A stretch of DNA of 64,000 nt. Source: Apostichopus japonicus (taxonomy: Eukaryota > Echinodermata > Holothuroidea > Aspidochirotida > Stichopodidae). Numbering within the stretch: position 1 is the first letter of the stretch; the number at the start of each line of letters is the position of its first letter. The notes under the pieces were generated by a model. It saw only the letters and a list, made by a program, of their open reading frames with translations. It was not told the DNA's origin and searched no databases. The stretch covers positions 490,001-554,000 of the forward strand of contig NC_092573.1 in NCBI RefSeq assembly GCF_037975245.1, written 5' to 3'. The position numbers and the translations under genes are program-made. Below, one piece after another: positions 5,274 to 46,593 of the stretch.

Positions 5274-5861
5274 TCACCGAAAAATGCCGTTTAGAGTAGC
5301 CGCGTGCTCCAGAGCCTTTCTCCGTAAAGATGCTATACTGGTGCCTCTCCACATATCTTGACAATCTACAGAGGAACCGACACCCCCGGAAACACTGCAC
5401 GGAATATCAACCCCATCCTGAGCTGAGAGTCCCGGCGAAGATGCCCCCGTCATACCCGCTGCTGAGACCCCACCAAACGTGGTTTGGTACATAGCCTGCA
5501 TGGGCATATTTCCGGATAGCTGCCCACCGAGAGCCGAGCCTGAGGTAACCGAAGGCATCCCGCTATCCTGATGATAAGATTGCCCGAATCCCTGGCGGGG
5601 TAGCGTCGGGGGCAGAGTAAATGTAGGTGGTGCTGAGCCTGCGTTCATCGCAGGGGGCATATGCTGGGCCATTGGTGACGTCATCGATGCCATAGAGGGT
5701 GGCCAGCGGCCATCATTGGGGTGAAAATTACAGAGAGCATCGCTCATGGTTGATGGAAATTGTGGTATTCCGTGAGACGGAAGGAGTGCCCCAGGTGTTC
5801 GAAATACATTGGTAGCCTTCTTCCTCTTTTTCCATTTTGCACGACGGTTTTGAAACCAAAC
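5274..5861 (-). CDS. otp: otp coding exon 3 (recognition helix, linker, OAR domain, stop)
   Basis: The acceptor is AATTTTCCAG, then [20 protein letters not shown], a Pro/Ser/Met/Gly-rich transactivation-type linker, the OAR motif and stop codon 5276-5274 after LNGIFR. Internal ATG codons inside this exon are not starts, because splicing joins it in frame with the homeodomain exon. Confidence 0.96.
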
Positions 5862-8800
5862 CTGGAAAATTTTAAAAAAGACATCATATTTAGGTTTTAT
5901 GTTTCAAACGTATTATTTGAATCTGTATCATACAACATGAAATAATTGAAAATGTTTTTAATTTATATCATGTTTTGAGATTTTATGGTTGACATTTTCA
6001 AACTTTTCAGTAACATTATTGTTACGACTATGAATTCGTATTTACAGAGACGTAAATATTGCGATACCCCACTAAGGAAGTATATGTGTTATACAGGAGC
6101 AGGTGATCTTACAAGTACATATAACATCAAATGTTTCTAATAAATAACGCGATAAGTGCTAAGTATGCTTATACACATTATGTCTTCCTACAAAATTAAA
6201 AATTATTATTATAAACGATATTATTACATCAACACAAAACAAACTGAGTCGTGCTCTTTACTTGAAACAAAGCAAGAAGATAAGAATGATTTACCGCTGC
6301 AATTAACAAACGACAGTGTTCCAATATATGAATAAACATGTTCCTAATATAAATAATATGCTCTCCTATAAAAATTAACACCACACCTTAGCGATCACCT
6401 TGAATCAAGCAGTTGAAGAGGTCCTTTTAGGTTTAAAGTACATCTCTATCTAGCTTAAATCTTTTCTTTTCAATTTTTTTTTTTTTTTGGCGCAGTAGTG
6501 ACGTCATTTTCATGATGGATTTATAACACATGGACGGCCATACGTGCACTAAGCCGCCCAGACGGCTCTAGATTGATACCAATATCTTGTCTCATTTTAT
6601 TGTCAATGTGACACCTTTCCTGTTTTCTTTTTCTTCGGTGAAATTGAAATATCTTAGCTGAAAAAACTCGATCATAAATCGAGGATGATGACAGGTCTGG
6701 GGTCGTAGCGGCTGTTTATACCCGGCAGATAAACCCCCTTTTACCTATCAACACATGTTAATGTTCGCAAGAGATTAAAAACTTCAAAAGACAAAACAAA
6801 GATGAAGATGAAGAAGAAAGAAAAGAAAACGAGAAGGAAATGTTTAGCTTGGACGAGAAAGGAAAAAAGAGCTTCAGAAGATAACTTCGCTTATTTTTGG
6901 CTTTGCCGTATATAGGAACTGTGTATTATATGACAGAGACTATAGAAGAAAAACTATAACGTTAAAGAGGACGTTAGGGTACCAATTATTACAATATAAC
7001 CGTGTCTTACTGTCTGTCTTGTTGACTGATCGTCCACGTGTCTATCATGTGACTTTATAGATTGACCCCTGATTGGTTGAATTAGTTAAAGTTCCTTTAT
7101 GTTATTATCTAAATTACATAGATTGACATTTTTAATATAATCTTCAGTTAAAAAAATTTGATGTCGATTGTTTTATTGTAACAATTGATCATTGTGTGTA
7201 GGGCTATGAATATTCAAAGCAAACAACTGTCTGATGTCATTCTTACAGATTTATCATCAAGTAGTGGTAATTACCAAATAAAGTAATATGGTTAATCATA
7301 TCAATTATCCCTCTTTTCTTGATTTTATCCTCAAAAACGTTGTGAATGGCTTATATTCTGTATATTTATAGATGAATGTGTAAATATGAGATAAAGAGTT
7401 ATATATTCGATATATATTATTCTTGAAAGAGTAAATACATTGCATCATAGGACATAGTGTGTGTATACTTGTACATGAAAACATTATATAGAGTGGTGGA
7501 ATATTGTTTATATATGTATTACGTAAATATATGCATAACACACATAAAAAACGTATTCTTATAAAGTAAATAGCAGTATAGTATTTGTTTAAATTTTATC
7601 TGCAAAGGTTATTAATTCTTTGAATTCTTTATTCTTGTATAGATGAAATGTGTAAAATATCAGATAATGAGTAATATTTTCTATATTTTCATATGTAAGA
7701 GTAAATATAAAAAGCATAAATAGAGGTCTTCTGTAGATGAAATAATAAAAAGTAGCTATTAATTATGTGCTTATTATTTCCTTTCTAGGGTTGTCTGGAA
7801 AGATATTTATGCAAAAAACTTTTTTATTACATTTTCATAAACATATACGTGAGTTACATATTTAGATATACCATATTTTCATCCAATTGAATGTATGTGT
7901 GTTCACAACAACTATTTATTTGGAGGTTTATATTAAGCATCAACACATAGAACTGTGATACTGTTATATATATATATATATATATATATATATATATATA
8001 TATATATATATATATATCATATATAATGTTTATATATATATATATATATATATATCATATATAATGTTTATATATTGCTTAAAATTGACTGTATCTATAT
8101 TTTGTAATAAAATCAATCAATCAATGAGTTATAAGAATTAAAATATACACGGGCCATTCTTTTTCATAATTAAGTTATTTTCATTTGTAAAACCAAATTT
8201 ACTAGCTATCGATGTATTAATATGCTTGAATTTGACTGGTAAAAAATGTCTCATTTTGTTTCATATTTAATGGAGACAACTCCTACGTTATTTTCTGTTA
8301 ACTAATCTATAATTGGTTAAAAGAACAGCAGGATATTATATACCCAGTTACAGACTACGCGAGCTTTCAACGTCAACGTCCTCTTTTAATTTATCGATCG
8401 ACCTAAATGAACGAAATACAAACTTGTTTAAAATCGAGTCGATTTGGTTAAATTGTACAAGCAGAAGTACGTGGAATGACTTTTGTTCTGTCGGGGTAAT
8501 ACCAGGCCGCGGGCTTTCCACAACAATGCAGGTTTTGATCAAGCCCTCAATAACGCCATGTGCCTCACCTGCTATACAGAAACATTTAAACATAATTTCG
8601 ATTTTTGATTTGTTTCTCTATACAGCGCTTAGCACTGCAGAAGTTCAAGATTCGTTCTAATTTTATAATTGCTGTATTCAGATATCTTTAGATAAGGTCA
8701 CGTGTGCATGAATATTCAATAGTCTGGCGATCTCTCGTACCATGGCTATACTCTTTAAAGTTTGTTTTAAAAAGAGAGAGAACAAAAACACGCTTTTGAT

Positions 8801-45800: not shown

Positions 45801-46593
45801 CTCTTTGTTGAAGCAGCTTGGTGGTCGACGGTCTCTTGCATGTGTTCTCGAAAAGCTGGCTCTTTTTCCATTTTTACGAATATCGTCACTATATATCAGT
45901 ACTATATGAGGTCGATAGTCACTGTTGGCCCAATCACATCAGTAATTTAGCAGATTTCTTAGAACCAAGGCCTGAAGTGATATGATACAACCTGATATAT
46001 ATGTCTGATTCAGCAATGAATTTAGATTATCTCCGTGAAACAACCAACTTATTGGAACTCATTGTATCACTATCAATTGATAAAATTTTATTGAATTTAT
46101 CATAAATATTTACATAGAAAATAATAATTAAACGGGCAATTTTTAGAAAAATCGGTGATGTGTCTATTAAACAGCACTTGGCGTCATCCTGAAGTTTAAG
46201 AAAAAAACATTGTCAATATCAAATATAGACATACAATCCGTCGATCTGCCTGCGCCATCGATCGATAGCTGCGCGATCTACCGATGCTTGCGCTAACGAC
46301 GGATCCATAGATAGCGCAGCGCTATCGATCGATGGCGCTAATCGGTCGATAGCGCATAACATATATATATATATTAATCAACGTAGGCGGCACAAAACTG
46401 CATCCTAACGTTAGGGTCAACTCAATGAACAACGTGGAACATTATTGACAGTAACTAAGTAGAAGTAGCACTAACAACACTAACGTTGCAGCTGATAAAT
46501 AATAAAGTTGAACATTTCCAGCTCTGTGCATTACCTTTTGAGAACGCCACTCTTTATGGTTATGGGCCTTAACTTTGGGTCTTTACTTGCCAT
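42892..46593 (-). CDS. TBCA: Tubulin-specific chaperone A (tubulin-folding cofactor A)
   Basis: Four coding exons on the minus strand: 46593-46535, 44927-44822, 43996-43910 and 42978-42892. All have GT/AG junctions and give 112 aa (human TBCA is 108). The protein starts MASKDPKLRPITIKSGVLKR. Family blocks follow: KEKLMYQKEA, EYDIKKQ, ESMMMIPDCDKRIKAAYHEL and a Glu/Lys-rich last helix. Cofactor A is a small cytosolic three-helix bundle that captures beta-tubulin released by the CCT chaperonin in the alpha/beta-tubulin folding pathway. For exon 2, the acceptor ACACAG at 44928-44933 was chosen over the one three bases inside the exon because it keeps KRxxKEKxMY aligned with the family. Intron 1 carries a transposon (45407-46361). 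The neighbour otp lies downstream on the same strand, and INTS14 starts divergently upstream. Confidence 0.95.
45407..46361. mobile_element. Non-autonomous long-TIR DNA transposon (Ginger-like) in TBCA intron 1
   Basis: The ends read TGTTATGCGCTATCGACC and its inverse. The terminal inverted repeats run about 94 bp with only two or three mismatches before diverging, and are built from CGATCGATAGCGC-type sub-repeats. The element is 955 bp and sits in a TA run, so a 4-bp TATA target duplication is possible but cannot be proved. The inside carries a minus-strand frame resembling the N-terminal, zinc-finger-proximal part of gypsy-integrase-type transposases. Ends starting TGT, 4-bp duplications and an integrase-like protein fit the Ginger superfamily as I recall it. 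The catalytic core is absent. Confidence 0.7.
45458..45889 (-). pseudogene. Integrase/Ginger-type transposase remnant
   Basis: A 143-codon frame inside the TIR element. Residues about 35-100 (EKYDAIKSHLLHP, HFRHWVKTRNFQIVD, VVKGIHVDELS) look like the region before and at the first His of an HH-CC zinc finger in gypsy integrases and their domesticated relatives (KRBA2-like). Beyond that the frame loses similarity and runs into the TIR. A local duplication of GTCTACGTGAATACCC (about 45562-45612) lies at the break. No DDE core remains, so it is not a working transposase. Confidence 0.5.

Follow-up and report, generated by a model that had tools for sequence, protein, structure and literature searches.

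otp and TBCA, adjacent genes in the sea cucumber Apostichopus japonicus, are likely an inherited pair held together by otp regulatory DNA

The homeobox gene otp and the tubulin binding cofactor A gene TBCA are direct neighbours on the minus strand, with otp downstream of TBCA, in a 64,000-nucleotide stretch of the genome of the sea cucumber Apostichopus japonicus. This stretch, hereafter the window, runs from base 490001 to base 554000 of C13, a contig of 26.78 Mb; the assembly has 35 contigs and totals 671.6 Mb. The arrangement had been put forward in a preliminary description of this DNA, and was borne out by Pfam and structure matches together with splice models. We consider it reasonably likely, at a level well short of certainty, that otp and TBCA form an inherited pair held together by an otp regulatory block.

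The otp and TBCA genes and the interval between them

The otp gene was modelled as three exons on the minus strand (25833-5277), the first of which is predicted, and TBCA as four coding exons on the same strand (46593-42892) with GT/AG junctions. Given in window positions, the features of the pair are as follows.

5277..5861, minus strand: otp exon 3, homeodomain end and C-terminal part with the OAR motif, in frame with exon 2; lies in open frame 5277-5903(-), in which the OAR motif is complete (Pfam OAR 5.8e-09) and Pfam matches the final 13 positions of the homeodomain at 0.0022, alone below its cut-off
12593..12858, minus strand: otp exon 2, encoding the N-terminal part and the homeodomain as far as RVQ, with AG acceptor and GT donor; lies in open frame 12536-12901(-), which holds homeodomain positions 1-48 (Pfam Homeodomain 9.4e-16)
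25728..25833, minus strand: predicted coding part of otp exon 1, donor CTG/GTAAGT, with the best donor score among 7 ATG-to-donor candidates
25834..42891, no strand: otp–TBCA gap, 17,058 bp, in which no protein family was found; holds arrays of ATAG and of AGAGG and a duplication of 1,084 bp
42892..42978, minus strand: TBCA exon 4 with stop, from the splice model
43910..43996, minus strand: TBCA exon 3, from the splice model
44822..44927, minus strand: TBCA exon 2, from the splice model and an assembly search match
46535..46593, minus strand: coding part of TBCA exon 1, from the splice model

The otp splice model gives one open frame of 319 amino acids (aa) containing PAQLNE and AKWKKR, which are homeodomain motifs named for mouse Otp (PMC1635040). 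The encoded protein was assigned to Otp by its PRD-class homeodomain with these Otp motifs, combined with the OAR motif. Conservation of the OAR motif of Otp is strong in human, sea urchin and Nematostella, whereas protostomes have only the core of the motif or none of it (PMC2938728). A search of the assembly with the otp homeodomain returned 54 matches, the two best being the window exons and the next one 67% identical.

Of the two otp introns, the one located where the homeobox ends is clear; for the N-terminal one, the acceptor preceding exon 2 is clear, and the intron leads upstream to the predicted exon 1. Exon 1 was sought between 12.9 and 42.8 kb and in phase 1 only, as the exon 2 acceptor needs, and guessed vertebrate otp exon-1 motifs gave no match. 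The first intron of zebrafish otp1 (66-nt leader, intron after nt 142; PMC1635040) works out to phase 1, the same as the exon 2 acceptor phase here. Because only phase 1 was searched, this agreement supports the intron and not a particular exon 1. The 17-kb gap named in the preliminary description follows from this placement of exon 1 at 25833-25728.

A hand-joined 103-aa version of the TBCA protein matched Pfam TBCA at 1.1e-23, and the full 112-aa protein matched chain 1h7c, 'tubulin-specific chaperone A', at 2.9e-25; the tubulin binding cofactor A domain thus takes up its whole length. The single TBCA match in the assembly was exon 2 of the window, the other exons being short, so that they would be missed. 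Within TBCA intron 1, an open frame at 45461-45895 gave no Pfam match, and we take it to resemble a mobile-element protein.

No gene was recognised in the otp–TBCA gap: none of the 10 frames tested, out of 23 open frames of at least 90 aa, had a Pfam match, and shorter exons would be missed. The 13 frames left out were simple-repeat frames, a duplicate copy or an overlap with a tested frame. The gap holds 231 copies of ATAG at 27773-28697 (925 bp, 100% match) and, at 32460-34940, a near-identical 1,084-bp tandem duplication, whose two copies differ in the length of the AGAGG array, 84 bp versus 399 bp.

Neighbours of the pair in other genomes and along the chromosome

Human OTP and TBCA, we presume, both have minus-strand orientation, and TBCA is the upstream gene. 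That the two are neighbours in human, as had been stated in the preliminary description, agrees with a human gene list reading WDR41, OTP, TBCA, AP3B1 and SCAMP1 (PMC2359992). The same holds for the lists from mouse (Scamp1, Ap3b1, Tbca, Otp, Wdr41, Pde8b; PMC4204525) and from a study of the nine-spined stickleback (AP3B1, Tbca, Otpa, Wdr41, Pde8b; PMC4880927), and a pig window lists OTP, TBCA and AP3B1 together (PMC10034349). These vertebrate lists appear to follow chromosomal order, and none of the passages prints strands. In amphioxus, the otp–rx interval of 162 kb has seven genes between, including SCAMP and a tubulin chaperone (PMC2938728, 2010); this case is one of linkage and not of proven adjacency, the passage naming no TBCA there and giving no order. 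Comparison of the window with the published lists thus revealed the same otp and TBCA neighbours in distant lineages, that is, a microsyntenic pair. Given the shared vertebrate neighbours and the linkage in amphioxus of otp to SCAMP and a tubulin chaperone, the otp–TBCA linkage is, judged from gene positions, at least deuterostome-old, in line with the age proposed earlier.

Compared with the human 5q13-q14 order PDE8B-WDR41-OTP-TBCA-AP3B1-SCAMP1 (PMC2359992), OTP and TBCA are likewise neighbours here, whereas AP3B1, SCAMP and PDE8 are megabases away and INTS14 is the next gene. Each of these three families has its sole assembly match on C13: AP3B1 at 17.29 Mb on the minus strand, SCAMP at 17.36-17.37 Mb on the plus strand, and PDE8 at 8.57 Mb, 8 Mb from otp–TBCA. 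AP3B1 and SCAMP are 70 kb apart (C13:17287503-17373062) and 16.8 Mb from otp–TBCA, and form a further remnant of the gene order at human 5q14. The families for this comparison were human OTP neighbours with a distinctive Pfam model. WDR41, which is not known to have such a model, was left out, and XRCC4 was set aside as uninformative, since its search returned no matches anywhere, controls included. Three of the five usable families (AP3B1, SCAMP and PDE8, and not LHFPL and CRHBP) are on C13, which makes up 4% of the assembly (p ~0.0006 if the families are independent, which AP3B1 and SCAMP, being neighbours, are not fully).

Two homeoboxes were also found at C13:21.4625 Mb and C13:21.4403 Mb (within C13:21439500-21463500), 22 kb apart on opposite strands and about 21 Mb from otp. 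We take the former to be an rx sequence and the latter a homeobrain (hbn) sequence; Pfam calls both proteins homeodomains only. Relative to the hbn-rx-otp cluster described in PMC2938728, otp and the hbn- and rx-like homeoboxes share one chromosome here, and the latter two are separated by 22 kb, in agreement with the sea urchin report. The cluster is not intact, however, with otp 21 Mb off, and hbn and rx occupy opposite strands, whereas they share a strand in the sea urchin of that paper. In vertebrates, rx is on a different chromosome from otp (PMC2938728).

The preliminary description had also held that conservation stops at TBCA. Locally this stands, but AP3B1, SCAMP, PDE8 and the rx- and hbn-like homeoboxes lie on the same chromosome, so that a larger block is probably broken in this genome. 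INTS14 was considered as a real chromosomal boundary and rejected, three human 5q13-14 families sitting on C13.

Descent, chance and regulatory constraint

An ancestral block with otp, TBCA, AP3B1, SCAMP and probably rx and hbn, in some order, would have been kept on one chromosome. In A. japonicus it would now lie in at least three pieces, namely hbn-rx, AP3B1-SCAMP and otp-TBCA, the last of which would be a joint surviving both here and in vertebrates. Independent joining of otp and TBCA in the echinoderm and chordate lines gains some ground from the fact that both genes were probably on one ancient chromosome. Assuming random gene order on C13 and 15,000-30,000 genes, however, adjacency of a given pair has p ~0.002-0.003 (~0.01 for any of the 4 window adjacencies), and p falls to ~0.0004-0.0008 once order and orientation are required. 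With chances this low, descent rather than coincidence explains otp–TBCA; the linkage of otp to a tubulin chaperone in amphioxus (PMC2938728) also speaks against a second joining, which we regard as scarcely credible.

The inherited pair is probably held together by otp control DNA, a possibility already raised in the preliminary description. Control elements of otp would lie upstream of the gene, within the gap, inside TBCA or past it; selection would then act against any break that parts the two genes, and TBCA would be the bystander of a regulatory block serving otp. Of seven conserved otp elements reported in jawed vertebrates, six are located 5' of the gene and one downstream, and one upstream element drives forebrain expression in zebrafish, with 91% of those cells otpa-positive (PMC4248439). 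The ultraconserved element uc.160, or OTP_Lukas, has AK128395 upstream and AP3B1 downstream (PMC7565279). Because AP3B1 is its downstream gene, human gene order probably puts uc.160 beyond TBCA, with TBCA between OTP and the element. A block across TBCA in jawed vertebrates is a plausible fit to the upstream otp elements and uc.160 together. Such pairs of a developmental gene and a bystander are of an already known kind: in genomic regulatory blocks, for example wnt7-atxn10, a developmental regulator stands beside an unrelated housekeeping gene and the two have long been kept together, as have otp and TBCA (PMC8851819). Those blocks have target enhancers in or beyond the bystander, and in an echinoderm otp–TBCA block otp elements would be predicted there.

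Several observations weigh against this reading. The picture of an old block kept on one chromosome is complicated by two families located off the chromosome of otp: CRHBP (CRH-binding protein) maps to C4, and LHFPL to C10, C4 and C20. The nearest annotated neighbour of Nematostella otp is a ferredoxin (PMC2938728). Among the vertebrate elements tested, only the one mentioned above gave reporter expression in otp territory, and no conserved otp element was found in lamprey under the settings of that paper (PMC4248439), so that a deuterostome-wide constraint would have to act without that sequence conservation. The otp–TBCA gap is the most repeat-rich of the segments compared, 21% of its 20-mers recurring within 264 kb versus 1.3-2.5% for the otp introns, and such repeat richness would be unlike the look of a densely constrained gap. 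Finally, AP3B1 and SCAMP have also been kept within 70 kb, and retention by itself therefore proves no otp-specific constraint.

The persistence of AP3B1 beside SCAMP would also suit an otp–TBCA pair that is ancestral but free of selection, its 17-kb joint simply unbroken in the sampled lineages, and the 45 retained amphioxus–chicken microsyntenic blocks, with up to 5 intervening genes, point the same way (PMC10719294). Set against passive survival are the 8-21 Mb that separate AP3B1, PDE8 and the rx-hbn pair from otp–TBCA on the same chromosome, together with the vertebrate conserved elements upstream of otp and the one named for OTP near AP3B1 (PMC4248439, PMC7565279). On balance we find it unlikely that the pair survived in this way, if by no means far-fetched. 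Shared regulation, by which otp and TBCA would be co-expressed rather than stand as target and bystander, would suit two neighbours on one strand; they are, however, 17 kb apart, and TBCA is a general tubulin chaperone whereas otp is a restricted regulator, which leaves co-expression very improbable.

The regulatory-block reading might be carried further. The otp–TBCA pair would then be one joint of an ancestral hbn-rx-SCAMP-AP3B1-TBCA-otp block kept by selection in most deuterostomes, and an otp control domain predating the echinoderm–chordate split would span TBCA, its enhancer sequences having turned over beyond recognition. We put this fuller version forward tentatively, and would sooner bet against it than for it. 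In titles and the starts of abstracts among the matches listed, a scope outside which a 2012 survey of ancient microsynteny falls, no treatment of otp–TBCA as a conserved pair was found. As far as could be seen, two findings appear to be new: that otp and TBCA are adjacent in an echinoderm, and that AP3B1-SCAMP, PDE8 and hbn-rx are scattered along the same chromosome as this pair.

Genomic setting and significance

Next to TBCA, on the far side from otp, the window holds one further recognised gene.

48219..53818, plus strand: INTS14, with VWA_2 and IntS14_b-barrel domains; oriented head to head with TBCA across 1.6 kb

Two of its frames are supported, 48174-48479 (first ATG at 48219) and 49369-49872, given here as open frames and not as exons; the beta-barrel scored 2.8e-19 and structure chain 6sn1_B 4.2e-29. 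Frame 53564-53818 may belong to INTS14 as well, by coding score and resemblance. On the minus strand, window positions 56618-62000 probably hold a gene for a coiled-coil protein, with a 347-aa open frame and no Pfam match above the cut-off. In 2-kb steps, G+C is about 0.28-0.38 on the otp side (window 1-34000) versus about 0.34-0.41 on the TBCA–INTS14 side (36000-58000).

Beyond the window, C13 carries a KGD4/MRPS36-like frame at 482656-482874, which matched no solved structure, a TrmO-like frame at 457780-458664, a thrombospondin type 3 repeat that falls slightly short of the Pfam cut-off (C13:390269-390640) and an SHC-like SH2 domain (C13:651112-651366). Human INTS14 is on 15q, and its location, together with those of human SHC, thrombospondin and KGD4/MRPS36, would fit one linkage group predating the vertebrate genome duplications.

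Elsewhere in the assembly, mitochondrial cox1 on contig C35 has AAA at 11 places, including the highly conserved asparagines in FSTNHKDIG, GGFGNWL and FPRMNNMSFW, and ATA at 23 places, where it reads as isoleucine in context. AAA for asparagine with ATA for isoleucine is the echinoderm/flatworm mitochondrial code (table 9). On this code a protostome other than a flatworm was rejected as the source, and the complete OAR motif of otp makes a flatworm unlikely, in agreement with an echinoderm. Five separate cox1-like stretches at C29:14745-31219 are apparently rearranged mitochondrial DNA in another contig.

Since otp shares its chromosome with the hbn- and rx-like homeoboxes, chromosome-scale linkage of the hbn-rx-otp cluster seems to persist in an echinoderm, a question left undecided by the sea urchin scaffolds analysed in 2010 (PMC2938728). 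Together, these genes offer a compact and testable case, in which the otp–TBCA pair is intact while genes that would once have been near it lie up to 21 Mb away. Echinoderms and chordates parted more than 500 million years ago, and the position of echinoderm otp enhancers would reveal whether, over such a span, a regulatory domain is able to last longer than the enhancer sequences within it.

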